64,000 nucleotides of DNA from Xenorhabdus miraniensis (GTDB lineage Bacteria; Pseudomonadota; Gammaproteobacteria; Enterobacterales; Enterobacteriaceae). The notes under the pieces were generated by a model. That model did not search any database. It was given only the letters and a program-made list of their open reading frames with translations, and was not told the DNA's origin. Location: the NCBI RefSeq assembly GCF_002632615.1, contig NZ_NITZ01000003.1:306532-370531 (forward strand), read 5' to 3'. The translations under genes were made by a program, and so were the position numbers. Shown one piece after another: positions 13,639-56,498 of this stretch (position 1 is its first letter; every line of letters begins with the position of its first letter).

Positions 13639-13798
13639 AAGTTCCGGCTGTGAGATTAATGTGTTGATACTTTTATGCTGATGCCTTTATTTGGAAAACA
13701 TTTAGCGGAAAACGCCATAAACCCTCACCCAATGCGGACGAGGGATATAAGGTGAAGAACTTTATCGGGCTTTTAAAGAGCAATCAATCGTCTCTTTT

Positions 13799-15494: not shown

Positions 15495-15510
15495 ATTTTA
15501 GGGAATTTTA

Positions 15511-40266: not shown

Positions 40267-41799
40267 TTAAGATATGAAATTAAAATACCCTGATTCTGAA
40301 TAATCTTTGCCTACTTGTTTGAATCTTTCATTAGGAAAATTATATCCATTATCTAAATACCTTTTTGCGAAATACAAAGAAGCTTTGTCGTTAATTCCTA
40401 TGTTTTCCAATGCGTTACGTTGAGCATCAGAAATTTCAAAATCAATACTATTTATATAATCAATCAATGTATTTTTGACTCCACTTCCATCTGGCATTCT
40501 GATTTTAGGTCTGTCAACAATATAGCTCGGCAAAATATCTCTAAATGCTTCTCTAAGTATATATTTTTCAACTCCATCTTTTATCTTCAATGATTCATCA
40601 AGGCTTAATACATAGTTTACCAGTTTATAATTCATAAAAGGTACTCTTGCTTCTACAGAATGACGCATACTTGCGCGATCAACGCGTTGTAAATCTGTAC
40701 GATGTAAATTATTTAGCCGATAAAGGGATAATTCATCAATAGAAGGATATGTCTTGAATAGATCATAACCACAAAAAATTTCGTCGCTACCTTCTCCACA
40801 TAAAGCGACCTTAAAGCCAAGCTTACTAGCGATAAAATAACCAAAGCCTGCTATAATAGAGTCTATAGAATCTATTTTTTCGAAAAACTCTCCATAATAC
40901 ACAGCTTTTTCAATTTCGTTAATTAAATCTTGCTCGGTAAACGTATATATTATTTGACGTATTTTATTTTCTTTGCAAAAGCGCTGCGATATTTTTATAT
41001 CATTTGAATCAGGTAAACCAAATGTAATGGCTGTAATATTAGAATGGTATTTCTTGGCAAGAGCCAATACAATAGCGCTATCTATTCCGCCACTAAACAT
41101 TATGGCAATTGGTAAATCAGTATCAACTTGAGATTTAACCGCTGTTTCCATTAGATTACGTACTTTTTGTTTTGCGATAAGGTAGCTATCCTTACTTTTC
41201 TCTATTTTTTTGTCATAGCTAATATATTTATACAATCTATTACCATCGTAAAGATTCCCGGGTTCAAGCGTTTTAACCTCAACAGAAAGTCCCAGAAAGG
41301 CCTTCATTTCTGAGGCGATATACCAAACATCATCTTTGAAGGCATAGTAAAGTGGTTTAATGCCCACATGATCTCTGCCAAGTAAAAATGTTGAATTTTT
41401 ATTATCAAATATAACAAATGAAAACATTCCATCCAGCATTTTTACAAATTCTTTACCATATTTAATATATAATTTTAATATTACTTCGGCATCACCACGC
41501 CTTTCAAAAACACATCCTTCTTTTATAAGATTTTCTCTTAGTTCCTTATAATTAAAGATTTGTCCATTAAGAATGATATGAATATCTCTTTCTGCATCTG
41601 AAACAGGTTGTTTGGCATTATCTCTTTCCAGAATAGCCAAACGGTTAGTTGCCAGCCCGAAATTTTCTCTGACCAGGTTTTCATTAAAAAGAGGTAAATC
41701 TCCCCGGTGCTTAATCATTTCGGCCATGGAAATCAATTTTTCATTTATCTGTTCAACTGACTTTTTTTTTGTTGTAAATATTGCAGAAATACCACACAT
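40267..41799 (-). CDS. Glutamine-dependent asparagine synthetase-like amidotransferase
   Basis: A 510-residue AsnB-family protein. The class II glutaminase domain begins with the catalytic Cys2 (MCGISAIF) and has NGQIFNYKELR and RGDAEVIL. The synthetase domain has the pyrophosphate loop SGGIDSA and CGEGSDEIFCGYD. The glutaminase residues are all in place, so ammonia-dependent amidation of a carboxylate is expected. The beta-lactam synthetases CarA and BLS share this fold but have lost Cys2. The start has AAGGAGA upstream. Its place between EPSP-like genes and a formyltransferase suggests tailoring of a natural product rather than bulk asparagine supply; this is an inference. Confidence 0.85.
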   Translation of the reverse strand: MCGISAIFTTKKKSVEQINEKLISMAEMIKHRGDLPLFNENLVRENFGLATNRLAILERDNAKQPVSDAERDIHIILNGQIFNYKELRENLIKEGCVFERRGDAEVILKLYIKYGKEFVKMLDGMFSFVIFDNKNSTFLLGRDHVGIKPLYYAFKDDVWYIASEMKAFLGLSVEVKTLEPGNLYDGNRLYKYISYDKKIEKSKDSYLIAKQKVRNLMETAVKSQVDTDLPIAIMFSGGIDSAIVLALAKKYHSNITAITFGLPDSNDIKISQRFCKENKIRQIIYTFTEQDLINEIEKAVYYGEFFEKIDSIDSIIAGFGYFIASKLGFKVALCGEGSDEIFCGYDLFKTYPSIDELSLYRLNNLHRTDLQRVDRASMRHSVEARVPFMNYKLVNYVLSLDESLKIKDGVEKYILREAFRDILPSYIVDRPKIRMPDGSGVKNTLIDYINSIDFEISDAQRNALENIGINDKASLYFAKRYLDNGYNFPNERFKQVGKDYSESGYFNFIS

Positions 41800-41841
41800 A
41801 AAGTTATCTCCTTTACAGAATAATCAATTATATTTAGTCAG

Positions 41842-43161
41842 TTATTTAATATTTGCCCCTAAGGAGCTAATTTCAGAAAAATATTCTGGGTAAGTTTGTC
41901 CAACATGATAAGGTTCTTTTATAACAACAGGTTCACTACAATGAAGTCCTATTGTTGTAAGCCCCATTATTAAACCATGATCATAATGTCCATCTAAAAC
42001 AACGCCGCCTTTATATCCTTTTGGATTTCCATGAATAATGAGTTGATCTTGTTTTTCATCTGATTTTACACCCAGTTTTGATAATTCTTTTCTAAAATCT
42101 GATATTCGGTCAGACTCTTTATATCGTATATGCTCAATGTTATAAAAAATACTTGTACCAGAGGCAAATGCTGCCCTGGCTGCTAAAGCAGGAACAGCAT
42201 CTGGAGCCAGCGAACCATCAAAGTCAAGAGGTAGGATATCTGTAGTACCACGTATTTTTATTGTTTCATCTTTAATAAATGTTATATCTGTACCAGTATC
42301 TATTAAATATTGAATTACAGCTCCATTTCCTAGCTCTTCTTCAAAAAATCCATTCAATTGGACATCTGATTCCAAAGAACTACAAAGTGACAGAATTGCA
42401 GCTGTACTTGCTGGATCTGCTCCTACTACAAAATCACTAGGCTGTAATTGGCTGTTACCAGATATGAAAAATTTGCGAAAATCACTATCGTATTCGACTT
42501 TAACACCTGCTTTTTTCAAATTATTTATTGTCGTGTGAACCATTGATTTAGCTGTAATATCATCAATGACTTTTATGGTTAAATCATTGTCCATTATTGA
42601 ACCAAGATATAATAATCCGCTTAGGAATTGTGAACTTTTCCTACAAGATACTTCGGTATAGTTATTTAATCTCTTATTCGATTTTATTGTGATAGGAAGT
42701 CGATGCTCTTGACCTGATGCTTCGCATTGAACATTCAGCATCCTAAGAGCACTAATCATCTCAGTTTGTGAACGAACGCCAAGAGAAGAGTGATAGTCTG
42801 TTATGAATTTAGTCTCTGGTAAAAAACCAGCTACACCCATTAATAAACGAAGAACTACCCCCGAGTTACCAGGATTAATTTCTAATGGATGATTGATAGA
42901 ACGTACATCAACTCCATTCACGATCAATTTGTTTCCATTCTCTTTAAAGATAGCACCCAATCTCTCACAATTTGATTTCATTGCTAATGTATTAAATCCA
43001 GTAGCAATATTCTTGATACTACTTTCCCCGGAAGTAACAGAAGAAGTTAAAAGAGCTCGAGTTGAAGAGCTTTTAGACGCGGGTAAATTAAGTGTTCCAT
43101 GCAAATTTTTAGAGAAATTAATTTCGACAAATTGTGTATTATGATCAATTCTTTTAGTCAT
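41842..43161 (-). CDS. Divergent EPSP-synthase homologue 1 (PEP-site residues lost)
   Basis: A 439-residue enolpyruvyl-transferase-fold protein. It keeps LPASKS (LPGSKS in AroA), GNSG, KSSQFLSG, APDA with the catalytic aspartate and RYKESDR with the catalytic glutamate and arginine. Compared by eye with E. coli AroA it has lost residues that bind phosphoenolpyruvate: the arginine of the MKERPI segment is not recognisable, NDHR is YDHG, and the lysine of KTFPDYF is glutamine (GQTYPEYF). It is therefore unlikely to be ordinary shikimate AroA. It lies 26 bp after a second homologue and 42 bp before the asparagine synthetase gene, all on one strand. Confidence 0.8.
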   Translation of the reverse strand: MTKRIDHNTQFVEINFSKNLHGTLNLPASKSSSTRALLTSSVTSGESSIKNIATGFNTLAMKSNCERLGAIFKENGNKLIVNGVDVRSINHPLEINPGNSGVVLRLLMGVAGFLPETKFITDYHSSLGVRSQTEMISALRMLNVQCEASGQEHRLPITIKSNKRLNNYTEVSCRKSSQFLSGLLYLGSIMDNDLTIKVIDDITAKSMVHTTINNLKKAGVKVEYDSDFRKFFISGNSQLQPSDFVVGADPASTAAILSLCSSLESDVQLNGFFEEELGNGAVIQYLIDTGTDITFIKDETIKIRGTTDILPLDFDGSLAPDAVPALAARAAFASGTSIFYNIEHIRYKESDRISDFRKELSKLGVKSDEKQDQLIIHGNPKGYKGGVVLDGHYDHGLIMGLTTIGLHCSEPVVIKEPYHVGQTYPEYFSEISSLGANIK

Positions 43162-43187
43162 TTTATATTATCCTATAGATATCCCAA

Positions 43188-44489
43188 CTATTTAACTATA
43201 ACACCCAAGTCTTTGAGTGTTTCTATATATCCGGGGAAACCGTCGTTTAATTTATGAATATCATATATTGTAGATTCTTTCTCTGCGCCAAGAGATGCTA
43301 TAATATTAGCAGCACAAACTCGATGATCTTCATAGCTTTTAAGTTCAACACCTCCTTTTGTGGGGCCTTTTCCTTCAATACATATTGAATCAAACATACC
43401 TTTTTTATCGAAGATTAAAGAGCTATTTGCTCCCATGGTTCTTATATTTTCATTAACAATAAAAGCTCGTTGGCTCTTATGGTTATTGATGGTATTTAAT
43501 CCACTGAAAATTTTTTTTCCCTTTAGATTTGAGGTTGCCGCAATGATGTTTACTGCTACTGAGGGGAGTTCTTTTAAGGAAAACTTTCCATCATAAGGCT
43601 CAAGTAAGCTTTTATTTATTCTTAATTGCCCAATATCCAAATCATATTTAATTTTTAAGCCTATTTTTTCATAAAGTTTAAATAGATAACGCTCATTTAT
43701 TGTATCACCAAAATAATAATTTCTTATAAGTACATCACTTTCTCCCTTTGAACTTAATACAGAAGAAGCAATGTAACTTAATGATGTAAAGTCAGAAGGT
43801 ATTTTTATTTCAATGTTTCCAGAGTCGTACTCAGTGACTTTAATATGATTTTTATCATGTATTACTGTACTTCCTAAAAGTGCCATTGATTTAACGGTCA
43901 TGTCAATATAACCTATCTTACTGTCATCCATAATTACGGGAACTTGTTTTTGTTGACTGAAAGGGGCAACAAATAAACAAAATGTAATGAACTGAGTACT
44001 ATTAGTAACAGTTAATGGTTTTTTTATGTTGCTTTTATTTTTGGTGATGATAACCTTTTCACCTTCTATTCTTTCAATGTCAATATCTAAATAATTGCAA
44101 AAATCTTCATCAAATATACTTTCTCTGCTGAATAGAGATTCATTGCATTGTATAGTTACTTTACAATTTTCAATCAATGATGCCAAAGCTACACACATTC
44201 TGAATAACATTCCAGAACCGCCGGCATATATTTCTCCATGGCATGATAAATCTCTTCCTACACCACGAAGCAATAATGTTGTTTTGTCTTCATATAATAT
44301 CTCTAATCCAAATTTTTGCAGAGCATTGAGCTGATTTTTTGTCTCCGCATTCCAGGATACATTAACAATCTTAGTTTTACTTTTATTCAGCAAAGCTAAT
44401 AATAGGGCACGTTGTAAATGAGGTTTAGATGATGGAATAGCAATTTCGCCTGTCAAACCAAGGCTTGGAAAAACAGTAATTCTTCTCAT
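43188..44489 (-). CDS. Divergent EPSP-synthase homologue 2 (catalytic acids lost)
   Basis: A protein of about 433 residues with the same two-domain fold. It retains IPSSKPHLQRA, GGSGMLFR, STQFITF and EDHR, but the catalytic aspartate of PDA is replaced (LPSVAV), the KETDR motif reads NHKSQRA without the glutamate, and the lysine before FPDYF is aspartate (NDGFPGY). It thus lacks the acids that homologue 1 keeps and keeps the DHR arginine that homologue 1 lacks. ATG 44489 is preferred, with AAGGAAAG just upstream; a TTG at 44513 is also in frame. It is the first large gene of the leftward group. It could be a partner subunit, or an enzyme with different chemistry. Confidence 0.78.
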   Translation of the reverse strand: MRRITVFPSLGLTGEIAIPSSKPHLQRALLLALLNKSKTKIVNVSWNAETKNQLNALQKFGLEILYEDKTTLLLRGVGRDLSCHGEIYAGGSGMLFRMCVALASLIENCKVTIQCNESLFSRESIFDEDFCNYLDIDIERIEGEKVIITKNKSNIKKPLTVTNSTQFITFCLFVAPFSQQKQVPVIMDDSKIGYIDMTVKSMALLGSTVIHDKNHIKVTEYDSGNIEIKIPSDFTSLSYIASSVLSSKGESDVLIRNYYFGDTINERYLFKLYEKIGLKIKYDLDIGQLRINKSLLEPYDGKFSLKELPSVAVNIIAATSNLKGKKIFSGLNTINNHKSQRAFIVNENIRTMGANSSLIFDKKGMFDSICIEGKGPTKGGVELKSYEDHRVCAANIIASLGAEKESTIYDIHKLNDGFPGYIETLKDLGVIVK

Positions 44490-44924
44490 TTCTTTCCTTT
44501 TGAAAATTTTCAAACATATAGTAGATATATACTATCTTATAATAATAAGAGCGTTTTTATTTTGTTGGAAAAACATACGATAATTAATCAATGTATTAAT
44601 TTGCTAATGATGTTCAAGGTGTAAAACAAATTAATATTAGATTAACACAAATTATTAGATAAATGTGCATGAAAGATAAATAGCCTGATATTCACAACTA
44701 TTATGACAGTTTGGTCATTAATTGATTTTTTGTTACATGAAAATATAGTTAATATATTTAATTTTAACTGTTTGATATGTTATTTATATATGGTTGTGAA
44801 AATAATATACTCCATGTGAAATGATTTAGTTAATTTATTAGGAAATTATTCTTATTATAATATTTATATGAGTTTTGACCCAACATCAAGCTCTTTTTGG
44901 TATCATTAGTAGTGACCAGATATC
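44490..44924. other. Intergenic region before the EPSP-like operon
   Basis: About 435 bases of extreme AT content. It probably holds the promoter of the leftward operon. No operator could be recognised. Confidence 0.45.
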
Positions 44925-45164
44925 CTAAAATTTTCGCCTTATCTTGGTAAACTCTTCGAAGTATTTTTTTATCCATGGCGATGAATGCTCTTCCTTCTTG
45001 TGAACAGCATTCGTTGATCTGACTGAATAAGAGCTTGGTTGTAATGGCTTTGAGTTAATATCAGGTTGAATTTGTTCAATAACTGTTAATAAAGTATGTT
45101 TCCGTCCTGAGTCTATTATAGACTCACGTGTCACAACACTTATGAAATATAGATCTATTCTCAT
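44925..45164 (-). CDS. Small hypothetical protein, 79 aa
   Basis: A 79-residue open frame starting at ATG 45164 with AGGAAA 8 nt upstream, which is a good translation signal. The product is basic (pI probably high), has no signal peptide or membrane helix, and ends SPWIKKYFEEFTKIRRKF, an amphipathic, positively charged C-terminus. I do not recognise a family. It lies in the divergent gap between the EPSP-like operon and the aminotransferase gene and could be a regulator-like or accessory protein, or a leaderless peptide. Confidence 0.45.
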   Translation of the reverse strand: MRIDLYFISVVTRESIIDSGRKHTLLTVIEQIQPDINSKPLQPSSYSVRSTNAVHKKEEHSSPWIKKYFEEFTKIRRKF

Positions 45165-45390
45165 AAAACAATTTCCTGTGATAGTAATAGATGATATGGC
45201 ACCATGGTTTTATAAAATATTAAAAATAATATATATCAATGGGTTAAATGTACAGTGCAGCAGTAAAGAAACAGATTCCTAAGAACATAGATAACTATGT
45301 GACTGGGAAAAGTAAGCATAGCTAACAAAGTTGTAATTTGAAAAATAACCGTTATCGTGATTTTAACCTTATTGTGTTAGGTGGGTGTTA

Positions 45391-46686
45391 ATGGAAAATA
45401 TTTACTATCGAAACTTGCCAGTCTTACCACGGGATCCTGAGATAATTAAAGCTATTAAGTACAAGGCAGAAAAATTATGGGAAGAAGTACTCAGGTTAAA
45501 CATCAAGCTAAATATAGCCAGAGGAAAACCGTCCACCAAACAACTAGAGTTATCTTCATCAATGTTAGAGTGGAATCCAATTAATGATTTTCTTTCTGAA
45601 GAAAATATTGACTGTCGAAATTATGGAGAACCGGCAGGAATTTCTGAAATGAAGGCTCTTTTTGCTGGCCTCTTAAATATCGATAAAAGTAATGTAGTTG
45701 CTTCAGGAAACTCAAGCCTGGAAATTATGTATCAAGTTATTGCAGCACTCATGATTTATGGCCCGGATGATTCTTCACCTCCATGGTCATCTTATGAAAA
45801 GATAAGTTTTATTTGCCCTGTTCCAGGATATGACAGACACTTTAATATCTGTGAAGAAATGGGAATAAATATGATCCCAGTACCGATGAGAGATAATGGT
45901 CCAGATATTGATATCATTGAAGAATTGGTATCTAAGGATGCGTCTATTAAAGGTATTTGGTGTGTTCCCAAATATAGTAACCCAACAGGAGTGACATATT
46001 CATCAGAAGTCATAAGGCGCCTGGCAGGATTAAAAGCTGCGGCACATGATTTCAGACTATTCTGGGATAATGCGTACGCCGTCCATGACTTGACAAGTAA
46101 AGAAATAAAAATTGATGAAATAATATCTGTTTGTTCTTCAGAAGGATATCCTAATCGACCTTATGTTTTTACATCGACATCTAAAATAACTTTACCCAGC
46201 TCAGGTATTGCTGTTTTTGCCTCTTCAGAATCGAATATAAAATGGTGGCTGGCAAGATCTGCAATTAGAACTGTCGGTCCAGATAAATTAAATCAGCTTA
46301 GACACGTTCGTTTCCTTCAATCTCATGAGAGGATCAAAGCACTTATGATTCAACATCGTGAGATATTGGCTCCAAAATTTTCAACTATCATTAAAGTATT
46401 TAAAGAAGAGCTCAGTCAATTTTCAATAGTAAATTGGAGTGAACCACTTGGCGGTTATTTTATTTCATTGGATATTCCAGATGGATGTGCGAAACGTACC
46501 GTGAAATTAGCAGCTGACCTTGGTATTGAATTAACACCAGCAGGAGCTACTTTTCCCTATGGGAAAGATCCTCAGGATTCGAATATTCGTATTGCACCTA
46601 GTTTCTTATCTACCGATGAAGTTTCACTTGCAGCTAAAGGGATTGTGGCAGCTATTCTCATGGCTGTATCAGAGCGAATATCTTGA
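45391..46686 (+). CDS. PLP-dependent class I aminotransferase, aspartate aminotransferase Ic-like
   Basis: A 431-residue aminotransferase. Conserved segments are the phosphate-binding GNSSLEIMYQ, CVPKYSNPTG, the FWDNAY strand, and the PLP lysine in STSKITLPSSG. The C-terminal arginine region is NIRIAPSFLS. The protein resembles the MocR/AspT-type Ic group described in actinobacteria more than enteric AspC. ATG 45391 is chosen because GGTGGG lies 5 nt upstream. Transcription is rightward together with the following NRPS, 113 bp away, so it may supply or remove the amino group of the NRPS substrate. Confidence 0.82.
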   Translation: MENIYYRNLPVLPRDPEIIKAIKYKAEKLWEEVLRLNIKLNIARGKPSTKQLELSSSMLEWNPINDFLSEENIDCRNYGEPAGISEMKALFAGLLNIDKSNVVASGNSSLEIMYQVIAALMIYGPDDSSPPWSSYEKISFICPVPGYDRHFNICEEMGINMIPVPMRDNGPDIDIIEELVSKDASIKGIWCVPKYSNPTGVTYSSEVIRRLAGLKAAAHDFRLFWDNAYAVHDLTSKEIKIDEIISVCSSEGYPNRPYVFTSTSKITLPSSGIAVFASSESNIKWWLARSAIRTVGPDKLNQLRHVRFLQSHERIKALMIQHREILAPKFSTIIKVFKEELSQFSIVNWSEPLGGYFISLDIPDGCAKRTVKLAADLGIELTPAGATFPYGKDPQDSNIRIAPSFLSTDEVSLAAKGIVAAILMAVSERIS

Positions 46687-46799
46687 ATATGAGTGGATTT
46701 CAATATGAGGAAGCTTTTTTTTAATTAGTTCCCAGAAGCATATTGCTGATGAAAGATTGCTGACAAAAGTATAAAACAGGCGATATTAAGGATATAGAT

Positions 46800-49586
46800 A
46801 TGCAATTAAAAGAGTCGAAATACGGCTGGACGAAACTTATGCACGCTAAAGATTTCGAATGGAAAATTATTCCATCCGATACTGTAAACGGTAGTCAAGC
46901 GTCCATAAAAACCTGTATTTCACGTAAGTCCGAAGGCGTGATATTCGAGTATTGTAATATCGAAAGCCTTCCTGGGTTCTTTTTCTCCCACGTTTTCAAA
47001 ACACCAAATAATATTGCTGTAACGTTTGAAGATGAAGCTCTCAGTTATAACGAATTAGCAAACATCGGGCTTCATTTGGCAAATTACCTGCGTTACTTGG
47101 GGTGTTCACCAGACGATCGCGTTGGCCTGTTTACAGATCCTTCGCTTGAACAAATGATTGGAATTTGGGGTATTATTTTTTCAGGAAGCGCATATTTACC
47201 TTTAACACCCGGATATCCGCCTGAACGGCTAGGTTTCATGATTGAAAATGCTTCTATTAAAATTATTTTCACCCAAGAAAAGTTAAAGAGTGAGCTTGCA
47301 AAGTTCATTTCAGAAGAAACCAAGATAATTACACTTGAGGATGTGTATGATTTTTCAATATCGAAAGGTCATATGGCATCAGTGCCTACAGTAATTAAGC
47401 TTAATCCCGAGAATCTTGCCTATATTGTTTATACTTCCGGCAGCACAGGAAAACCCAAAGGTGTATTGATTGAACATCGCAGCGTAATTAATCAAATGCG
47501 TTGGCTTATGAGAATGGGATATCTGGGAGCCGATAAGACAATAATTCATAAAGCATCCATCAGTTTTGATGCTGCGCAGTGGGAAATGTTGTCAATATGT
47601 AGTGGCACTAAATTGGTTATAAGTAATTTCGGGGTTGATAAAAATGTATTCGATCTGATCGATAAAATTGTTTCTAATAAAGTGACATTACTACAATGCG
47701 TACCTACTCTTTTGCAGGCACTTGTCAATAAGCCACAATTTTCTGAATGTACCTCGTTGACGCATATTCTATGTGGAGCGGAAAGCTTAACCAAGAAACT
47801 TGTACAGCAATGTTTTGATGTGTTGCCAAATTGTATGCTGGTTAATTTATATGGGCCATCAGAATGTACATGTAATGCTTCTTTCTATGAAGTTACTCAA
47901 GCGAACCTACATGTTGATGAAAATGCCGGAGTTCCTATTGGCATCCCAGTCGATAATACCAAATTCTATATCTTAGATGATGCGGGTTTACCGGTCCCTG
48001 ACGGAAACATTGGGGAAATATGCGTCTCAGGTGTACAAGTCGCTCGCGGATATCTCAATCGAAGCGATTTAACCCGTGAGCGTTTTATCGAATATCCTAT
48101 TGGGAATAATTCCGAACCTATCAGGGTATATAGAACGGGTGATCTTGCGTATTTAGGCAGTGAAGGGGTCTATCATTTTGTTGGAAGGAGTGATACTCAG
48201 GTAAAAATAAAGGGAGTGAGGATCGAGCTTGAAGAAGTCAAAATTGTTCTGGAAAGCCTCGATCTGGTAGAAAGTGCAGCAGTTTTGGTTAATGAAGGGC
48301 AACATGGGGGCAAGTATCTGGCAGCCTGCATACAAATTAGCGCCAATGAGAGTACGTTTATATTGCAGGAAAAAACGAGTAGAGATGAACTGGTTTCATG
48401 CTTCAAGCAAAAACTAAGTGAGTTGATTCCAGATTATATGATCCCAAGTGTTTTTGTTTTTGTTGATTCGATGCCGCATACAGTTAATGGAAAGATTGAC
48501 ATGCGAAAAATAAAAACACTTATAGATGAACGTGATGCCGAAGAATTTATCATTCCAAGGACCCCAACTGAGGAAGCTATTCTTGAAATATGGAAAAGTA
48601 CTTTAGGGATTGAAACTATCTCTGTCACTGATGATTTCTTTGAGCTAGGTGGTAATTCGCTGAATGCTGTTGATACCATCTCGTCAATCAATATGCGCTT
48701 CAATGTTAAGTTGCCGTTTCATATTATTTTTACTGCCTCAAGAATTGAGGAAATCGCAGGAATTATTGACCAAGGACTTACTAAAAAATCTTCTCGATTG
48801 GTTTGTCTGCAATCTTCGGGGATGAAAACTCCGATATTTTGCTGGCCAGGATTGGGAGGATATCCCATGAGCTTAAGAATATTAGCCGAAAAAATGGCAA
48901 GAGAACGGCCGTTTTATGGAATACAGGCATTCGGAATCAATGAAGATGAGACTCCTTATAGCTCACTTAAAGAAATGGTATCTGCCGATATTGCGGAAAT
49001 ACGTAACATTCAGAAAGAAGGGCCGTACTATCTCTGGGGGTATTCATTTGGAAGTCATTTGGCTTTTGAAGCGGCTTTTCAGCTTGAGGCAATGGGAGAA
49101 AAAGTGGAGAAGGTTGTCTTGCTTGCTCCCGGCATGTTGAAAGGATTACTCACAACAAATCCATCTGACGAATACAATAATAAGGAGTTAATTGCTCTGC
49201 TCTTTACAGTTTTTTCACGCAATGTTGATGATCCTGATTTGCACGCGTGTCTGGAAGCATCCAGTGATGAAGCTAGCTTTGTTGAATTTGTCTGTCAGAA
49301 ATATTCAATCGCTAATCCTGATCTGGTCAGGCGAATCTCTAAAGTGGTAATCGAGTCGCGGAGAATTTCACGCGAACTCAGTCGTAAAGCCCAAAAATTT
49401 ATAGCTGCCCCGACATACATTTTTAGTGCGCTTAACGATGAGCTTTCTATCTTTGAGAAGAATGCAGATTGTTTCCGGGGAGGGGTTGAAATTATAAAAC
49501 TCGATGTCACTCATTTTGATTTCTTGGTGGAACCCGGCATTAATAATCTTGTGTCACTCATGACCAAACATGTTCCTTCGCTGTGA
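46800..49586 (+). CDS. Single-module NRPS, A-T-TE, no condensation domain
   Basis: A 928-residue synthetase. About 60 residues of unassigned N-terminus are followed by an adenylation domain (about 70-590; YTSGSTGKPKGVLIEHRS, YGPSECT, YRTGDL, NGKID). A carrier domain (DDFFELGGNSLNAVD) comes next, and then a thioesterase (GYSFGSH nucleophile elbow). The A4 motif reads FDAAQWE, so the aspartate that holds an alpha-amino group is present. My manual specificity reading is D-A-W-Q-I-C-L-C-N-K, partly like some glutamine codes, low confidence. A-T-TE enzymes such as XfsA dimerise keto acids, but those lack this aspartate. Activation of an amino acid and release or oligomerisation by the TE is more likely. 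Confidence 0.85.
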   Translation: MQLKESKYGWTKLMHAKDFEWKIIPSDTVNGSQASIKTCISRKSEGVIFEYCNIESLPGFFFSHVFKTPNNIAVTFEDEALSYNELANIGLHLANYLRYLGCSPDDRVGLFTDPSLEQMIGIWGIIFSGSAYLPLTPGYPPERLGFMIENASIKIIFTQEKLKSELAKFISEETKIITLEDVYDFSISKGHMASVPTVIKLNPENLAYIVYTSGSTGKPKGVLIEHRSVINQMRWLMRMGYLGADKTIIHKASISFDAAQWEMLSICSGTKLVISNFGVDKNVFDLIDKIVSNKVTLLQCVPTLLQALVNKPQFSECTSLTHILCGAESLTKKLVQQCFDVLPNCMLVNLYGPSECTCNASFYEVTQANLHVDENAGVPIGIPVDNTKFYILDDAGLPVPDGNIGEICVSGVQVARGYLNRSDLTRERFIEYPIGNNSEPIRVYRTGDLAYLGSEGVYHFVGRSDTQVKIKGVRIELEEVKIVLESLDLVESAAVLVNEGQHGGKYLAACIQISANESTFILQEKTSRDELVSCFKQKLSELIPDYMIPSVFVFVDSMPHTVNGKIDMRKIKTLIDERDAEEFIIPRTPTEEAILEIWKSTLGIETISVTDDFFELGGNSLNAVDTISSINMRFNVKLPFHIIFTASRIEEIAGIIDQGLTKKSSRLVCLQSSGMKTPIFCWPGLGGYPMSLRILAEKMARERPFYGIQAFGINEDETPYSSLKEMVSADIAEIRNIQKEGPYYLWGYSFGSHLAFEAAFQLEAMGEKVEKVVLLAPGMLKGLLTTNPSDEYNNKELIALLFTVFSRNVDDPDLHACLEASSDEASFVEFVCQKYSIANPDLVRRISKVVIESRRISRELSRKAQKFIAAPTYIFSALNDELSIFEKNADCFRGGVEIIKLDVTHFDFLVEPGINNLVSLMTKHVPSL

Positions 49587-49692: not shown

Positions 49693-50486
49693 AGGAGCCA
49701 GCCATCAGACTGACCCGATATCGCGATATGATATATGAAGAGTTTCTTAAACGCTTTAGCAATCCCCATTTTCAAAGAGTAAATGGGTTTACCCAGAGTA
49801 TTTACTGTCTGCTTTTTCAGGTATGGCAGATAATATAGTCACTCGAAAGCGCTTCTTTCAGGCTGCTGAAACATTGGTAGGTTGCAGTGCAACATAAAAT
49901 TTTGCTTATATTTAAACCAATTAACAATAATATCAACCTGTTTTTCATATTCCCCCCAATCATAAATTACTTATGCATTGAAAATCCCTAGCCTTACCGT
50001 TGGGCTTTGTGCTACATCTTGAAATTTTCATAATTAAATAATTTACTCCAGATTAAATAAGAAACATTTAACCTAATAAAGAATAAAATAAGTTCACGAA
50101 TCTAAAATTAAATCTAATATATTTTATATAAATCAATATCTGAGTATAAAAAAAACTTCATAAAAAAAATACACATCAAATGCTTAAATTGTAGTGTATG
50201 ATAATTTTTATCAACAAAAAGTCTTTTCCTTTATAAAAAGTTTTCCCAGACAAAGATTAATCAAAAAAGAACCAATTATTAATATTATTCAATATGTTAA
50301 AAAAACATAAAATTAATTTAAAATAATTGCATGCGTATTTATTTCTTTATGTGTAATTTTCAGATTGGAATATATATTTTGCTAATTTGACTTATTTCTG
50401 ATGAGTATGTAAAAAGGTTTTTGCGAACATGTTATCGCTGAACAGACAATATTTATTTAAAATAATACAGATATATTGGAGGTTAT
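49693..50486. other. Leader/promoter region of the repeat-peptide operon
   Basis: About 790 bases, increasingly AT-rich. Around 49735-49850 one frame reads like a short decayed coding fragment (IYEEFLKRFSNPHFQRVN, then a stop), of unknown origin. At 50199-50213 TGATAATTTTTATCA is a near-palindrome matching the Fur consensus at about 12 of 19 positions, too weak to call. The promoter of the operon must lie in the last 300 bases. Confidence 0.45.
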
Positions 50487-50615
50487 ATGAGTAATTATAT
50501 CAAATCTGGTGTTCGTCCCGACGCAATGAAATCAGGGGTTCGTCCCGATGCAATGAAAACTGGTGTTCGTCCCGATGCAATGAAAACTGGTGTTCGCCCT
50601 GATTCAAATATTTAA
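50487..50615 (+). CDS. Candidate RiPP precursor, 42-aa repeat peptide
   Basis: A small gene with an excellent GGAGG Shine-Dalgarno site (50478-50482) before ATG 50487. The peptide begins MSNYI and then consists of four nine-residue units starting at Lys6, Lys15, Lys24 and Lys33: K-S/T-G-V-R-P-D-A-M three times, and a last unit ending D-S-N-I. There is no cysteine, no aromatic residue after Tyr4, no signal peptide and no double-glycine leader. Every unit offers one Lys, one Ser/Thr, one Arg, one Pro and one Asp. It is followed by a hairpin and then by oxygenase, ligase and exporter genes on the same strand, so it is most likely a multi-core substrate for those enzymes. This is an inference from architecture; I know no described family with this sequence. 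Confidence 0.8.
   Translation: MSNYIKSGVRPDAMKSGVRPDAMKTGVRPDAMKTGVRPDSNI
50502..50609. repeat. Four 27-bp repeats encoding the core units
   Basis: Units at 50502-50528, 50529-50555, 50556-50582 and 50583-50609 share the GGTGTTCGTCCCGA core with few changes; the last diverges at its 3' end. Synonymous differences (GAC/GAT, CGT/CGC, TCT/TCA) with conserved residues suggest selection on the peptide. Confidence 0.9.
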
Positions 50616-50629
50616 AATAGTAGTAGTGT

Positions 50630-50651
50630 AAGCCAGCAATTATGCTGGCTT
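50630..50651 (+). terminator. Attenuator-like hairpin between precursor and enzyme genes
   Basis: An 8-bp stem AAGCCAGC (50630-50637) / GCTGGCTT (50644-50651) with a 6-nt loop, followed by ATTCTCAAATTTT. Partial termination here would give more precursor than enzyme mRNA, a usual arrangement in RiPP operons. It could also stabilise the 3' end of the precursor message. Confidence 0.65.
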
Positions 50652-50693
50652 ATTCTCAAATTTTAATCTTCTTAAAAAGAAAAAGGTAAAACA

Positions 50694-51953
50694 ATGAAAA
50701 TTAATTTCCACGAAAAAATTTGGGAAGGGTTTGAAGAAAAAACAAATCATGGTAAATCCCCTTTTCTCTTTAAATCAATATTGCCTTTGAATGAAGGATT
50801 TTCTAATCATGAAACTGTTCAACAAGCATTTTATAATTTGCGTATAAAATCAAATTTACAAAAAACTGATTGTCGCTTGCGTATTTATGATGGTGAAAAA
50901 CGTCGTGATGACCTTGTAGAGCAATTATTTTCTGAAGAAATATTACCCAATGAAACAGTTGTAAACTTTATGCAACGTTTAACAGGAAAAGAACGTTTCA
51001 GCTTAGTGATTAATAATCTTGAACAATCCAATTCAAAATTAGCTGCTGATTTCGGACTATTTGCACAATCTTTCTTTGCATATAAAGGTTTTCCTATTGG
51101 AGGAATTGAACAAGCAGCGTTTTGTGGTAATTATTCAGGGACAGCCTTTGGAATACATGAAGGTTTTGAACATGCCTTTTTGTGTCATTTAGGCCCAGGG
51201 ATTAAATATTTTTACTGTTGGTCAAGAGAGTTATATTTAGAAATAGCAAATTCACGCGAACCAACATTCTCCGAATCAGAAATTTATGATAAATTAATGG
51301 AGAAAGGTACTCTTTATACCCTTGAGCCAGGAGATGCTCTTTATCTACCCGCATCTGTCTATCATGTTGGTCGTCAAGATGAATATTCTGTATCTATTGC
51401 ATTGCCATTCTATACTTATCCATTATCTCGCTTCATGGCTATAAAGATTATTCCAACTCTTAGCGAGCAATCATTATCGTTTGATCAAGAGGGAATGTCA
51501 GAATTAACTCCATTCGATAATGGTCAATTTATAACCAAATCACTTGCTAACCTTTTAACAGAAACAATGAGTAAGTGGACTCAGCAAGATTTACCTAAAT
51601 TTATGAAATATTATTGGCATAGACTGCGTAGTAATGGTGGCTGGGAATTACCTTCTAGCATAAGCGAAAATCTATTAAAGGAGCCTAATCAAAAAAACAA
51701 ATTAGCTATTCCCATTAACTCTCAAGTATCTCTACAGTCTCCATTTATTATTAGTTATGAGCATGGATTAGATTGTGAAAATAATGAAATTCGCGTATTT
51801 ATTGCAACAAAAAGTGTGATATTACCTGCAAGTAAAGAAGTTTTAGATATTTTGTCAAGTCTTAGCAATCATCATACAATTACAGTACTCTCAGGATTAA
51901 CTCATAATATACTAGAAAAATTATCTTGTACTGGTGGACTAGCTTTAAATTAA
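50694..51953 (+). CDS. JmjC/cupin protein, ribosomal-oxygenase-like, with HEG in place of HxD
   Basis: A 419-residue protein. Residues about 130-245 form a JmjC/cupin barrel: GIHEGFEHAFLCHLGPGIK (His155) and LYLPASVYHVGRQ (His224) match the two histidine positions of Fe(II)/2-oxoglutarate oxygenases. The C-terminal 90 residues (LPASKEVLDILSSL) look like the winged-helix end of YcfD/RoxA, which hydroxylates an arginine of ribosomal protein L16. In YcfD the first motif is HLD; here the aligned triplet is His155-Glu156-Gly157, so the carboxylate ligand seems lost, as in Fe/2OG halogenases, unless Glu156 or Glu159 replaces it. The gene follows the precursor by 78 bp with AAAGG upstream. Proposed substrate: an Arg or Lys of the repeat peptide. 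Family fairly sure, reaction unknown. Confidence 0.7.
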   Translation: MKINFHEKIWEGFEEKTNHGKSPFLFKSILPLNEGFSNHETVQQAFYNLRIKSNLQKTDCRLRIYDGEKRRDDLVEQLFSEEILPNETVVNFMQRLTGKERFSLVINNLEQSNSKLAADFGLFAQSFFAYKGFPIGGIEQAAFCGNYSGTAFGIHEGFEHAFLCHLGPGIKYFYCWSRELYLEIANSREPTFSESEIYDKLMEKGTLYTLEPGDALYLPASVYHVGRQDEYSVSIALPFYTYPLSRFMAIKIIPTLSEQSLSFDQEGMSELTPFDNGQFITKSLANLLTETMSKWTQQDLPKFMKYYWHRLRSNGGWELPSSISENLLKEPNQKNKLAIPINSQVSLQSPFIISYEHGLDCENNEIRVFIATKSVILPASKEVLDILSSLSNHHTITVLSGLTHNILEKLSCTGGLALN

Positions 51954-51971
51954 CTTTGAGGAGACATGAAT

Positions 51972-52823
51972 ATGTATAGAAATTTTCCTGCATTGGTAGA
52001 TGATTACCTAATAAAAAATACTTCCACTGGAAAGTTACTTAATTGCATTATTAGAGAAGGAAAAGAAAAAATTGATGGAAGTGAACTCATCGATAGACAC
52101 TTTGATCCTATGATTTTAACTCTTTACAATCAAATTAAGGAGCTAATAAATCCTTTAAATCTTGATGAGAATGAAGCGAAATTATATATAGGCGAGCTTT
52201 CTATTTTTGCTCGCTACAATTCTACAATGCTCTTAAGAGCAGCTGATAATGTTCGCGGCTTTTGTCCCGAACTAGCACAAGAATTAACACGTAACTTTTT
52301 AGAGGAAGGTGGTGAGCGAGGAAAACTGCCAGCACACTACGTTGTTTTTAGTGGAGCATTACTGGCAGATTTAGATTTTCGAATCAATGGTTGGATGCCA
52401 CGAGTTTCTTCAACTCGTACTCTTATTTCTTTAATCGACATACTCACTTGGTCCCATTGCCCCTCAACATTGTTAGGAATGTATTATGCAACTGAAGCTG
52501 TTGCAATTTCGGAAACTTTACTTTTGCAAGATATCACCAATCGCCTAGGACAAATTACGGGGAGAGGAACAGGAGATTCATTGCCAAAACTTGACTTTTA
52601 TTACCGGATGCACTTGGATGAAACACATAGCGCAGCAACTAACAATGTTGCTGTAGAACGTGGTCACCAAGATGGTATTGCCAAATTTATCAGGGATGCG
52701 AATTTATTCCATTTTCAGCAACCTCAGATTGTGGATGGCTTTCTTCAGATGCTCACTCCTTTCGTTGATCAATGGGTTGAAATTCATCATTTAATTTTAA
52801 AAAATCGCTTCAACAATCAGTAA
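51972..52823 (+). CDS. Haem-oxygenase-like di-iron oxidase (TenA/PqqC fold)
   Basis: A 283-residue, mostly helical protein. Metal-ligand motifs typical of haem-oxygenase-like di-iron oxidases (UndA, BesC, SznF) are visible: FLEEGGERGKLPAH (Glu and His on one helix), a glutamate in YYATEAVAISE, and FYYRMHLDETHSAA with the HxDxxH pattern. Such enzymes use O2 to fragment, desaturate or N-oxygenate amino acids; BesC cleaves a chlorinated lysine after halogenation by BesD. ATG 51972 is preferred because AGGAG is 8 nt upstream, against 2 nt for 51966. It starts 18 bp after the JmjC gene, so the two are surely one operon. Substrate inferred to be the modified repeat peptide. Confidence 0.75.
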   Translation: MYRNFPALVDDYLIKNTSTGKLLNCIIREGKEKIDGSELIDRHFDPMILTLYNQIKELINPLNLDENEAKLYIGELSIFARYNSTMLLRAADNVRGFCPELAQELTRNFLEEGGERGKLPAHYVVFSGALLADLDFRINGWMPRVSSTRTLISLIDILTWSHCPSTLLGMYYATEAVAISETLLLQDITNRLGQITGRGTGDSLPKLDFYYRMHLDETHSAATNNVAVERGHQDGIAKFIRDANLFHFQQPQIVDGFLQMLTPFVDQWVEIHHLILKNRFNNQ

Positions 52824-52841
52824 TTTTCCTAGGTGAATGTA

Positions 52842-53228
52842 ATGAAAAAAAATGAATACTCTGGTGGTTGTCTTTGTGGACATATTCGATTTGTAGTTAC
52901 AGGGGAGGCTGGTAATCCGCACACATGTTCCTGTTCCATGTGCCAACAACATTCAGGTTCACTGACCCTATGCTGGGTTGAATTTCCTAAAGATGCAGTG
53001 CAGTGGAGTGGACCTGGAGGAGTACCCTCATTATTTCGCTCTTCTGACTATTCTAGCCGCGCATTTTGCTCACAATGTGGAAGCTCTCTGGGAGCCATAG
53101 ACGATGGTCCTACTATCGGCTTATTACTTGGCAATTTTGATAGCAAAAGCAAAAAAAATCTTCGTCCTACTGCTCATTCTTTTAAATCATCCCGTCCACG
53201 TTGGTGGTCGATAATCATCGAACCTTAA
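52842..53228 (+). CDS. GFA-family (glutathione-dependent formaldehyde-activating fold) zinc protein
   Basis: A 128-residue protein with all family cysteines: GGCLCGHIRF, CSCSMCQQHSG and FCSQCGSSLG, which bind two zinc ions. CENP-V/GFA proteins bind thiol adducts, though few have a proven reaction. ATG 52842 follows AGGTGA; GTG 52833 is also possible. The gene is 18 bp after the di-iron oxidase gene. An oxidase that releases formaldehyde or a reactive carbonyl would explain a GFA partner, but it could also act directly on the peptide. No evidence decides. Confidence 0.85.
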   Translation: MKKNEYSGGCLCGHIRFVVTGEAGNPHTCSCSMCQQHSGSLTLCWVEFPKDAVQWSGPGGVPSLFRSSDYSSRAFCSQCGSSLGAIDDGPTIGLLLGNFDSKSKKNLRPTAHSFKSSRPRWWSIIIEP

Positions 53229-53245
53229 TAGAGAGAATCAGTCAA

Positions 53246-54133
53246 ATGTTGAATTCACCCATTTTGTATAAGGCAGAGTTAATTCGCCGCATACGTACTT
53301 TCCTTGATTCCCAAAACTTTATTGAAATTATGACACCGGTCATGCGTCGTTATGCTGGTGATGATTCCCGCCCACGACTCTCTCTTCACAATGGAAGCTG
53401 GTTAAGAGAATCCTCGGCGTTTGCTCTTCGTTTTAATATCCAATTCCATGACAGTATCTACGAGATAGGTCCTAGTTTTAGACCCGACGCAGTAGATAAT
53501 ACACATTTGCCAGAATTCACAATGCTTGATTTATATAAAAAAGACTCTACTCTTGATGAAATGCTTAAGCTTGCTAAATTAATAATAGAAATGTTTTATA
53601 AAGGGAAAGTTAGTGTATTTTCATTTGCAAAGCATCTTAATCAACAATTTTCTATTGATTTTTTTGAAGACCCTAAAGCTTCCTTAAAACTCATTAATTG
53701 TTTAAGGAAAATATACTGTGATACAGCCAGCCCACCTTTGACGTTAGTTGACCGTTATATTGTTGAAAATATTGAACCATTATCTCAGCGATGTTGCATG
53801 ATAGTAACCGATTTTCCTTTACTTACTGAAATACGCGCAAAAAAAAGAACAGAAACAACAGGAATTGTGGAACGCTTTGAAATTTTGATAGATGGAATAG
53901 AAATTGTTCATGGTTATACTGACGAAGATAATGTAGAGCTTTTTGAAAGTCAGGCTAGAGAGCTTAATATGTTTGGATCTGAAGATTCAGTAATATGCTC
54001 AATGATAAAAGATAATAAATTATCTTCGTCTAGTTCTGGATTTGCAATTGGCATAGAAAGATTATGTCAAGTAGCACAAGGAGAAAAACAAATATCGATA
54101 TACTCCCCCTCTCGTCCATTTTCTCCTTTTTAA
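53246..54133 (+). CDS. EpmA/GenX-like class II lysyl-tRNA synthetase paralogue
   Basis: A 295-residue stand-alone class II synthetase core without the N-terminal anticodon-binding domain, as in EpmA (about 325 aa). Seen are motif 2 around YEIGPSFRPD with LPEFTMLDLY and motif 3 FAIGIERLCQ. EpmA activates (R)-beta-lysine and joins it to Lys34 of elongation factor P. Here the gene is in a peptide-modification operon, so it probably attaches an amino acid to a side chain or end of the repeat peptide, with the repeat lysines as obvious targets. ATG 53246 is used; an in-frame upstream ATG at 53201 would overlap the GFA gene. Sequence is clearly diverged, so it is unlikely to be the host's own EpmA. 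The acceptor is inferred. Confidence 0.82.
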   Translation: MLNSPILYKAELIRRIRTFLDSQNFIEIMTPVMRRYAGDDSRPRLSLHNGSWLRESSAFALRFNIQFHDSIYEIGPSFRPDAVDNTHLPEFTMLDLYKKDSTLDEMLKLAKLIIEMFYKGKVSVFSFAKHLNQQFSIDFFEDPKASLKLINCLRKIYCDTASPPLTLVDRYIVENIEPLSQRCCMIVTDFPLLTEIRAKKRTETTGIVERFEILIDGIEIVHGYTDEDNVELFESQARELNMFGSEDSVICSMIKDNKLSSSSSGFAIGIERLCQVAQGEKQISIYSPSRPFSPF

Positions 54134-54167
54134 TTTATAATTAACAAAACGCTTATCGGGAAAAATA

Positions 54168-55772
54168 ATGGTCACACTCAACGAATGGTTAATTATGGCC
54201 TTTTATATCGCTTTAATTTTAATTACTCCAGGCCCAACAAATACATTGTTATTATCAGCCGGATTACAGAGAGGATTAAACAAATCATTCCATTTTATTT
54301 TTGCAGAGGCAATAGGATATATACTAGCTATTTCAATATGGGGTTTCTTTTTATTATCTTTAGAAAAAATATTTCCTTATATATATCAGATTGCTAAGTT
54401 ATTATCTTCTATTTATGTATTGTGGTTGGCCTCTAAGTTATGGATGCTAAGTTTAAAAATGGATTACTTAACATCCAAAAGCTCTAGCTTAGTAAAGACT
54501 TTTTCAGGAAAGCATACAAATTTCGTTGATATAACAATAGCAACACTATTGAACCCTAAAGCGATATTATTCGTAAGCACCATTATTCCGATAAGCGCAT
54601 TTAACTCTATAAATATATTTTTATCTTCAATTGTTATTTTTTTGACGATTTTAATACCAATAGGAGTATTATGGATATTTTTAGGAAATATAGTTCACTC
54701 TAATAAATACTTACGTAAGTATATTGGAGTTTTTCTGCGCATAGCATCTACTATACTCATCTTATTTTCCTTTTTGCTAGTTTATTCAGGTATAGCAAAA
54801 GCTGAAAACTCATTAACCTTATATAATTGGCAGAGTTACACTAGCCCAGAGTTACTTAAAAAATTTAAACAAGAATATAATATTGATATATTATTACTGG
54901 AGTACAAATCAAATGAGGAAGCGTTGGATGGTGTTAAAAATGGAAAAATTGATGCAGACATTGTCGTTGTTTCTGATAATTTTTTACCTCATTGGATAAC
55001 AGCGGGGCTATTAAAACCTATTAATGTTAATTCATTGAGTAACTCCAAAAATATCACCGCTTCTTGGCAAAAGCCTTCCTCTGATATTAAGAGAAACTAT
55101 GGTATTCCTTGGTCTTGGGGTATTGTTGGTATTGCCGTACATACTGATACTTTTAATGGTGATGCCAATACATGGAAAATTATATTAGAGCCACCAAAAG
55201 AACTATCTGGAACTATTAATGTAGGTTCAGATATGAATGAACTAATTTATGCAGCCATTCGTTATCATGGTGGAAAAATATGTGATTCACACCCTGAATT
55301 ACTAGAAAAAGTTAGAAATACTTTACTTAAAGCAAAAAAACATTGGGCAGCAATGGATTATGGTAGTGTGTATATGATGGCTTCAGGGAAGTTTAAAGCG
55401 AGTATAGACTGGAATGGTGCAGCAATGCGCCAACGTAAAATTAACCCTCATATTCAGTTTAGTTTCCCTCGTGAGGGGACATTGATCTTTCGTGATAATC
55501 TAGTCATCCTCAAAAAATCAAAAAATTATGAAAGTGCCAAATTATTTTTGAATTTTATCATGCAACCTGAGAATGCAGCCCTAAATTCTGCTTTTCATGG
55601 ATATGATAGTGCAATAGAAGGCGCTAATACTTATTTACCTTCATGGATGCAAAATGCGCCTGAGCTCAACATTCCTGAGCAAGTCTTAAGAAACTCAGAT
55701 TATTCAATTAATTGTCCTTTTTTTGCCCGTGAAAAATATACTGATATCTGGCAACAACTTTTAGAAAAATAA
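54168..55772 (+). CDS. LysE/RhtB exporter fused to a PotD/PotF-type binding protein
   Basis: A single 534-residue frame. Residues 1-205 are a LysE/RhtB amino-acid exporter with ITPGPTNTLLLSAGLQRG and about six helices. The last helix ends in YSGIAKAENS, which looks like a signal-peptidase site. From about residue 215 the protein is a polyamine-binding-protein-like domain (SLTLYNWQSYTSPELLKKF, DIVVVSDNF, IPWSWGIVGIAVHTDTF). Exporter plus periplasmic receptor in one chain is unusual: the receptor may stay tethered or be cut free. A cationic product derived from Arg/Lys repeats or a polyamine conjugate would suit both halves. There is no sign of a frameshift in between. It ends the operon; an IS200 begins about 50 bp later. 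Confidence 0.85.
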   Translation: MVTLNEWLIMAFYIALILITPGPTNTLLLSAGLQRGLNKSFHFIFAEAIGYILAISIWGFFLLSLEKIFPYIYQIAKLLSSIYVLWLASKLWMLSLKMDYLTSKSSSLVKTFSGKHTNFVDITIATLLNPKAILFVSTIIPISAFNSINIFLSSIVIFLTILIPIGVLWIFLGNIVHSNKYLRKYIGVFLRIASTILILFSFLLVYSGIAKAENSLTLYNWQSYTSPELLKKFKQEYNIDILLLEYKSNEEALDGVKNGKIDADIVVVSDNFLPHWITAGLLKPINVNSLSNSKNITASWQKPSSDIKRNYGIPWSWGIVGIAVHTDTFNGDANTWKIILEPPKELSGTINVGSDMNELIYAAIRYHGGKICDSHPELLEKVRNTLLKAKKHWAAMDYGSVYMMASGKFKASIDWNGAAMRQRKINPHIQFSFPREGTLIFRDNLVILKKSKNYESAKLFLNFIMQPENAALNSAFHGYDSAIEGANTYLPSWMQNAPELNIPEQVLRNSDYSINCPFFAREKYTDIWQQLLEK

Positions 55773-55822: not shown

Positions 55823-56498
55823 AACCACCCGTATAACGGGTGGTTTGCTCTTGCCCTATAAGGGCTTGTTACCGACTGCGCCTAAATGACGCTGCTTTCT
55901 CTTCGTTCAAGCTAAGTGTCTTTGCTGCTTTGGCCTACCCCTTGAAGGGGTCTACATGCTCTTTACTACTCAATTTATCCGAGATTAAATCCGACTGTTC
56001 TTGCTCTCTGATAGACTTTTGAATTGTCGCTTCATTTAGCCCTACCGTACTGACATAGAACCCTTCCGCCCAAAACTTTCTGTTGCCAAATTTATATTTT
56101 AAATTGGCGTGTCTATCAAAGATCATCAACGAACTTTTACCCTTCAAATATCCCATAAAGCTTGAAACGCTTAGCTTTGGTGGAATACTCACCAACATAT
56201 GAACATGATCTGGCATGAGATGACCTTCGATTATTTCCACACCTTTATACTTACAAAGGTCTCTGAGGATCTCTCCCACACTTGAACGAATATTATTAAA
56301 AATCACTTTCCGTCTATATTTCGGCGAAAAGACGATAGGGTATTTACACAGCCACTTTGTATGCGCTGAGCTTTGTGCTTTAATGCCCATAAACACCTTT
56401 CCTTATTTGAGTTACGAATATTAGCTTGAACATCTATATCGTAACGGAAAGGTGTTTTTCTTGGTATAACCTTTGAACTCCACCCGCAAAGCGGGTGG
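55823..56498 (-). mobile_element. IS200-type insertion sequence (IS200/IS605 family)
   Basis: A tnpA gene lies between two subterminal hairpins, 55823-55845 (AACCACCC arm) and 56480-56498 (CCACCCGC arm), the characteristic ends recognised by the single-strand Y1 transposase. There are no terminal inverted repeats or target duplications in this family, so the exact ends are approximate. It sits directly after the repeat-peptide operon and abuts a broken topB gene. Confidence 0.85.
55935..56390 (-). CDS. tnpA: IS200-family Y1 transposase TnpA
   Basis: A 151-residue HUH single-strand transposase, the usual IS200 length. The metal motif is DHVHMLV (HxH), and the nucleophile tyrosine is in FYVSTVGLNEATIQKSI. 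The N-terminus has CKYPIVFSPKYRRK as in IS200. The start at 56390 has AAAGGTG close upstream. The frame is intact, so the element may still be mobile. Confidence 0.93.
   Translation of the reverse strand: MGIKAQSSAHTKWLCKYPIVFSPKYRRKVIFNNIRSSVGEILRDLCKYKGVEIIEGHLMPDHVHMLVSIPPKLSVSSFMGYLKGKSSLMIFDRHANLKYKFGNRKFWAEGFYVSTVGLNEATIQKSIREQEQSDLISDKLSSKEHVDPFKG

Follow-up and report, generated by a model that had tools for sequence, protein, structure and literature searches.

A tandem-repeat peptide and a conserved set of candidate modifying enzymes suggest a RiPP-type pathway in Xenorhabdus and other bacteria

The PEARL pathways (ammosamide, 3-thiaglutamate) append amino acids to a ribosomal peptide by means of LanB-like enzymes that use aminoacyl-tRNA, while in hormaomycin biosynthesis free lysine is the substrate of the lysine N-oxygenase HrmI, for which we know of no repeat precursor. 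The Bes pathway includes BesD, an Fe/2OG enzyme with an H-x-G motif, and an amino-acid ligase of the ATP-grasp type. BesC is a haem-oxygenase-like di-iron oxidase (HDO) that acts on a lysine-type substrate and gives formaldehyde as a by-product (PMC13108848). JmjC enzymes that act on basic RiPP residues are also a known kind of system; in the biphenomycin RiPP pathway, the JmjC or cupin enzymes BipG and PbsQ act on a basic side chain (PMC12707348, PMC12257519). Here we compare these systems with a locus of Xenorhabdus miraniensis found in a stretch of 64,000 nucleotides, hereafter the window.

Like the biphenomycin pathway, the locus combines a JmjC-fold Fe/2OG-type enzyme with a ribosomal precursor that carries basic residues. 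The biphenomycin enzyme, however, is an ornithine hydroxylase whose partners are an MNIO, a B12 radical SAM enzyme and an arginase (PMC12707348, PMC12257519), and no protein of these three kinds was identified among the window's operon proteins; the cassette JmjC protein, moreover, has Gly for the iron-site Asp, and its partners are an HDO, a GFA protein and an aminoacyl-tRNA-synthetase-like ligase. The H-x-G Fe/2OG protein, HDO and ligase together resemble the BesD/BesC route to chlorinated allylglycine, although the Bes enzymes use free lysine, whereas the cassette has a repeat peptide, a JmjC/YcfD fold and a LysRS-like ligase. YcfD, the ribosomal arginine hydroxylase, has H-x-D where the cassette protein has H-x-G; EpmA, the EF-P (R)-beta-lysine ligase, resembles the cassette ligase in being a stand-alone class II catalytic domain; and, unlike the tRNA-dependent PEARLs, the cassette ligase is a synthetase paralogue. 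An H-x-G JmjC protein, HDO, GFA protein and synthetase-like ligase around a K-x-G-x-R-P repeat were not found described in the literature searched, in agreement with the sequence-only reading, which knew of no pathway with this gene set; preprints and most subscription journals lay outside the coverage of the search.

The genes proposed by that reading, a repeat precursor followed by JmjC, HDO, GFA, ligase and LysE-PotD fusion genes, were all recovered and are co-directional (Table 1), with gaps of 78, 12, 18, 17 and 34 bases between successive genes. Comparison with homologues suggests that GFA starts at 52842 and not at 52833, and the ligase at 53246 and not at the TTG at 53201. We considered and rejected the upstream genes (38126-49586) as part of the cassette, since in the comparison loci L001, L002 and L041 no larger ORF of the window other than those of the cassette itself was matched beside it. 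A promoter scan was uninformative (20 found, 27.9 expected).

Table 1 Features of the cassette, in window positions
Feature	Position	Strand	Basis
Ribosome-binding site TTGGAGGTTAT	50476..50486	+	sequence; directly 5' of precursor ATG
Repeat precursor, 42 aa, four K-[S/T]-G-V-R-P-D units	50487..50615	+	sequence and relatives
Hairpin GUAAGCCAGCA-AUUA-UGCUGGCUUAU in precursor/enzyme gap; possibly partial terminator or mRNA stabiliser	50628..50653	+	RNA folding
JmjC/YcfD-fold Fe/2OG-type protein, 419 aa; retains H155 and H224, has G157 for the facial-triad Asp	50694..51953	+	homologues, model
Haem-oxygenase-like di-iron oxidase (HDO, DUF3865), 285 aa	51966..52823	+	Pfam, fold comparison
GFA/CENP-V-type zinc protein, 128 aa	52842..53228	+	Pfam, alignment
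Class II aminoacyl-tRNA-synthetase-like ligase, 295 aa, clade apart from EpmA and LysRS	53246..54133	+	Pfam, tree
LysE-type exporter fused to PotD-like solute-binding domain, 534 aa	54168..55772	+	Pfam/NCBIfam, alignment

The precursor, preceded by the strong ribosome site already noted in the sequence-only reading, translates as MSNYIKSGVRPDAMKSGVRPDAMKTGVRPDAMKTGVRPDSNI and is the sole ORF of the window with at least two G[VMIL]RP motifs; only five residues precede its first repeat, too short for a usual leader. Enzyme operons lacking the precursor, which the same reading had named as evidence against itself, were not what we found: a K-x-G-[V/M]-R-P-[D/G] repeat ORF is present in 35/35 of the loci read in which JmjC and HDO genes occur together, although many of these 35 are closely related Streptomyces loci and not independent. 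They span gamma- and alphaproteobacteria, cyanobacteria and actinobacteria, from Xenorhabdus to Nostoc and Streptomyces. When the JmjC alignment (A1) was matched to genome contigs, at least 21 loci were obtained; a K-x-G-[VMIL]-R-P repeat ORF occurs in 19 of the 21 matches listed, and the two without one (L020, L021) are the weakest matches and lack the partner enzymes. Also examined were all 14 plasmid records with closer JmjC matches (H41-H54), L041, L088 and L089; Pseudomonas and Rhizobium loci, known from proteins only, are outside the locus counts. No ORF has more than one copy of the motif in the ten comparison loci without the JmjC-HDO pair (L020, L021, L023, L051-L055, L086, L087). A search of a protein database yielded 24 precursor-like proteins at E 0.01.

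Repeat statistics were drawn from 26 precursors (L088, L089 and nine of the 14 plasmid records excluded), which gave 143 units, one of them the leader of L024. In the remaining 142, G and P are fixed by construction, being the anchors by which units were recognised, and units without them were dropped (for example, GVRSD of L041 and the degenerate last unit of L050). At the unanchored positions, Arg is present in 142/142 units and Lys in 140, the other two, both among the four units of L013, having Gln; the last position is Asp in 122, Gly in 19 and Tyr in 1. Counted strictly, each precursor has 4-10 repeats, except that of L093, which has 2, its remaining two units reading SGQRPD and SGERPD. 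A short precursor is conserved beside candidate modifying enzymes, as in a RiPP locus, the exception being L092, a Streptomyces plasmid with an H-x-G JmjC gene alone and no precursor, HDO, GFA or ligase gene in the 19 kb read. The presence of the precursor in every JmjC-HDO locus read and the near-constancy of its Lys and Arg lend good support to the RiPP-type reading, and we consider it likely that the six genes form a self-contained pathway of this type, the enzymes of which would act on the repeats.

The cassette is rare and patchy. Among 30 Xenorhabdus genomes, 3 have a full-length HDO gene and one more has a fragment; among 392 Streptomyces genomes, 4 carry the gene at full length and one more carries a fragment. 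A phylum-wide HDO search of 398 genomes returned nothing beyond G001 itself. Decayed copies occur at L041, L042 and L087, and no precursor was found in the stretches read of the decayed loci L042 and L091. The ligase is present in 34 of the 35 JmjC-HDO loci (L008 has a partial match), and 31 have an intact GFA gene; in L009 this gene runs into the end of the locus, and L012, L095 and L096 have broken copies. Vibrio lentus (L023) has a ligase without the rest of the cassette in the 15.8 kb read. Further genes are specific to lineages: actinobacterial loci also encode a relative of the arginine hydroxylase GntB with a desaturase fold (111 bits, cut-off 380), an annotated amidinotransferase, an arginine-deiminase-family protein, a TauD protein and a 378-aa protein, while a PLP decarboxylase and a protein weakly matching 2OG oxygenases are the additions seen in the loci of Nostoc commune and Parvularcula. 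With those of Nostoc carneum, described below, these additions point to guanidine, lysine and amino-acid-activation chemistry, and no single product is indicated.

The JmjC protein, 95% identical to a protein of Xenorhabdus sp. PB62.4, scores below the Pfam JmjC_2 cut-off (E 4.8e-4; 20.1 bits against 22), but despite this its JmjC fold is supported by a structural model, and it matches the whole YcfD fold end to end, including the YcfD-type C-terminal part. Both iron-site His residues are invariant in alignment A1, and in hhalign H155 and G157 align with H and D, respectively, of Xenorhabdus YcfD (E 0.0018, probability 15%). The protein therefore lacks the H-x-D...H triad of YcfD/JmjC_2 hydroxylases and has the H-x-G/A...H iron site seen in Fe/2OG halogenases. 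The earlier description as a YcfD-like JmjC protein holds for the fold; an ordinary YcfD-type arginine hydroxylase, however, it is not, because the facial-triad Asp is Gly in 120/120 of the homologues listed. E159 is unlikely to substitute for the lost Asp, since H-x-D relatives from Pantoea, Klebsiella and Streptomyces goshikiensis (FGIHKDQEH, FGIHLDKEH, FGIHKDSEP) keep E at the same place. H-x-G is a hallmark of Fe/2OG halogenases, though no proof of halogenation, and the D201G variant of FIH reportedly hydroxylates. One may postulate that the protein is a plain Lys/Arg hydroxylase despite its H-x-G and that the HDO is an N-oxygenase or desaturase, the whole pathway being halogen-free; this account deserves serious weight while falling short of probable, as fixation of the Asp-to-Gly change in every homologue listed is unexpected of a neutral loss. 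It had also been stated that the operon encodes no RRE-bearing protein, which is not established given the end-to-end YcfD match and the reported fusion of JmjC_2 domains to RRE-like folds in eukaryotes, bacterial relatives of which lie in RiPP-like contexts (PMC12710340). On the model, an RRE-like winged helix could form the C-terminal part of the JmjC protein.

The next gene product has the HDO fold and matches DUF3865 above the cut-off (E 1.1e-8); a literature search for this family by name returned nothing but unrelated work. Residues H124, H216, H234, E113, E114, E177 and E231, invariant in 18 HDO sequences, are candidate metal ligands. Among the characterised folds closest to it are those of HrmI and BesC, which both act on lysine, and for this reason we favour Lys over Arg, the Lys of the repeat being the likeliest target; oxidation and aminoacylation of Lys and Arg alike, as had been proposed, is possible. 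The GFA protein matches its Pfam family (E 8.2e-19), and its seven Cys columns, invariant in 26/26 rows of an alignment without L009 and L012, have the pattern of zinc ligands; against the S-hydroxymethylglutathione synthase model it reaches merely 15 of 234 bits. In L095 and L096 the GFA protein is broken off after about 45-60 residues and annotated integrase genes adjoin, and in L012 it is likewise shortened, so that GFA is possibly dispensable. To our knowledge, Streptomyces does not use glutathione, which makes a role of GFA in formaldehyde handling a weak proposition. A more specific scheme would have the JmjC protein act as a peptide halogenase that chlorinates every repeat Lys and the HDO perform a BesC-like cleavage to ammonia, formaldehyde (taken up by GFA where intact) and an alkenyl residue, with the ligase capping the product with a basic acid in a tRNA-free reaction; we regard this scheme as unlikely, and the broken GFA genes lower its odds.

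The ligase matches tRNA-synt_2 (E 5.4e-28) and had been called EpmA-like, an analogy that did not survive comparison: it is not an EpmA, given a score far under the cut-off of the EpmA model (111 against 286.9 bits), a separate clade and altered pocket residues. In a tree rooted on six LysRS-like sequences, the 46 family members form one clade apart from these and from three EpmA sequences (support 0.958), and a genuine EpmA is also present in the three Xenorhabdus genomes among seven genomes searched. Residue 57, which we take to be LysU E240, a Glu by which LysRS holds the amino group, is Ala in 17 members and Gly in 29; residue 94, presumably E278 of LysU, is Asp rather than Glu in 46/46; and residues 221 (N424) and 225 (E428) are His and Asp, respectively, each in 45/46. 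These four substitutions set it apart from EpmA, and the pocket looks rebuilt, as judged from the alignment, in a manner that fits a basic end group and not a lysine bound in the LysRS or EpmA fashion. Motifs 2 and 3 nevertheless keep their ATP-binding arginines (R78, R271) in 46/46, as would suit an alternative, PEARL-like scenario in which the peptide is a carrier whose repeats each receive an amino acid from the ligase, the JmjC protein and HDO modify the loaded residue, and a small molecule is released. Near-identical repeats in varying number would suit such a multi-site carrier, and the scenario also draws on L098, which has precursor, JmjC and ligase genes without HDO or GFA (12 kb read), and on the actinobacterial enzymes of free-arginine type (the GntB-like hydroxylase, amidinotransferase and arginine-deiminase-family protein). 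We nonetheless hold it to be improbable: no LanB-like tRNA-dependent domain was found in a Pfam and NCBIfam scan of the operon proteins, nor was a PEARL identified among them, and the Nostoc carneum locus (L050) keeps precursor, JmjC, HDO and GFA without a ligase, carrying an AMP-binding/carrier/reductase protein and a glutamine amidotransferase. Furthermore, the JmjC relatives known from RiPPs modify the peptide's own residues (PMC12707348, PMC12257519). The LysE-PotD fusion scores 106 bits against the PotD model (cut-off 582), and its alignment with the counterparts in L001, L002 and L041 covers 533 residues.

A hairpin follows the precursor in all seven precursor-JmjC gaps folded, namely those of the window (-19.6 kcal/mol; z -3.97 against shuffles), three other Xenorhabdus genomes, Parvularcula and two Nostoc, the six besides the window being folded without shuffles; its sequence differs from lineage to lineage. 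With a strong hairpin in the first gap, uniform expression of the operon is not a given. Precursor in excess of enzyme is common in RiPP operons, and the hairpin is consistent with such an excess, attenuation also being possible. That the short ORF is itself an attenuator peptide and no substrate is nevertheless highly improbable, hairpins notwithstanding, as it does not keep one position (it lies upstream of JmjC in the Gram-negative and Nostoc loci, separates HDO from desaturase in Nocardia and adjoins the desaturase in Streptomyces) and the feature conserved over four lineages is a residue motif, with no single-codon run.

Returning to the RiPP-type reading, we infer a route from these comparisons in which each repeat would be one core and the precursor, with its own ribosome site and the hairpin behind it, would be made in excess of the enzymes. 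The JmjC enzyme would act first, on the lysine side chain, a halide or other ligand filling the position left by Asp; the HDO would follow, cleaving or oxidising the side chain thus activated in the way that BesC and HrmI treat free lysine, and GFA would handle formaldehyde, should BesC-like cleavage occur. The ligase may activate an acid with a basic end group and couple it to the peptide or product. A scan of the operon proteins found no peptidase gene within the operon, and the repeats would presumably be separated by an unlinked host peptidase, with LysE-PotD exporting the basic product, rebinding it, or both.

If this reading is correct, the cassette would represent an undescribed RiPP class, present in four lineages, partly plasmid-borne and with mostly 4-10 tandem cores per precursor, and an aminoacyl-tRNA-synthetase paralogue would join RiPP enzymology. 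The JmjC protein would offer a directly testable case of halogenation, or another reaction other than plain hydroxylation, on a JmjC scaffold with Gly for Asp. With only five short genes besides the precursor, reconstitution in E. coli is practical, and the repeats would show each modification as a multiple mass shift.

Decayed copies of the cassette occur at three loci (L041, L042 and L087), retaining different remnants of the gene for the haem-oxygenase-like di-iron oxidase (HDO) and its neighbours (see the table), and single components are also found alone. An orphan JmjC gene carrying the H-x-G iron-site motif lies close to NRPS/PKS-like genes on a Streptomyces plasmid; the 19 kb read there encode neither the repeat peptide nor HDO, GFA or the ligase. 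On a plasmid of Vibrio lentus, a relative of the ligase stands alone, and the 15.8 kb read there contain no gene for the repeat peptide, JmjC or HDO. In the Nostoc carneum locus, the expected place of the ligase is occupied by a glutamine amidotransferase together with a protein of the AMP-binding/carrier/reductase type. In the precursor-like protein P0179, the repeat continues in frame into a PF08450-type domain; the contig behind this joining has 622 bases, and the joining may have arisen in assembly.

The GFA gene ends after about 45-60 residues in three Streptomyces loci (L012, L095 and L096). Since integrase genes are annotated directly after it in L095 and L096, GFA may be the entry site of an integrating element. 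Directly downstream of the operon in the window lies an ORF that we take to be an IS200/IS605-type transposase-like gene.

Upstream of the operon, the window holds a possible separate biosynthetic cluster. Domain and family matches identified an aspartate aminotransferase of the Rv3722c type and an NRPS with one module and a thioesterase. A protein resembling formyltransferases, an asparagine synthase and two proteins resembling EPSP synthase were recognized by eye only. This cluster was absent next to the operon in the three loci compared (L001, L002 and L041).

Pantoea and Klebsiella plasmids (L051-L053 and L055) encode a protein of the arginase family together with two JmjC/cupin proteins. 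They also share a small ORF, conserved at 57-60 aa and with an Arg/Asp-rich end, and some of them add GNAT and MFS genes; this set is possibly another RiPP system. On a Streptomyces clavuligerus plasmid, a distant DUF3865 protein adjoins ATP-grasp, arginase-family, isochorismatase and HypE/HypF-annotated proteins, a group that probably forms a different HDO pathway.

Positions of cassette remnants, variants and other gene groups
Locus	Source	Positions	Feature
Window	X. miraniensis	38126-49586	possible cluster
Window	X. miraniensis	55935-56396	presumed transposase-like ORF
L041	Xenorhabdus	about 4750-6900	HDO and transporter fragments
L042	another Xenorhabdus	10100-10715	HDO remnant, intact GFA gene
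L087	Pantoea agglomerans plasmid	3908-4575	truncated HDO, GFA
L012	Streptomyces	about 12240-12980	shortened GFA region
L095	Streptomyces	7620-12257	shortened GFA region
L096	Streptomyces	7623-11960	shortened GFA region
L092	Streptomyces plasmid	8971-10314	orphan JmjC gene
L023	Vibrio lentus plasmid	7405-8319	lone ligase relative
L050	Nostoc carneum	11079-15603	variant cassette
L051-L053, L055	Pantoea and Klebsiella plasmids	about 7170-11900	arginase-family and JmjC/cupin genes
L086	Streptomyces clavuligerus plasmid	4713-11950	distant DUF3865 gene group
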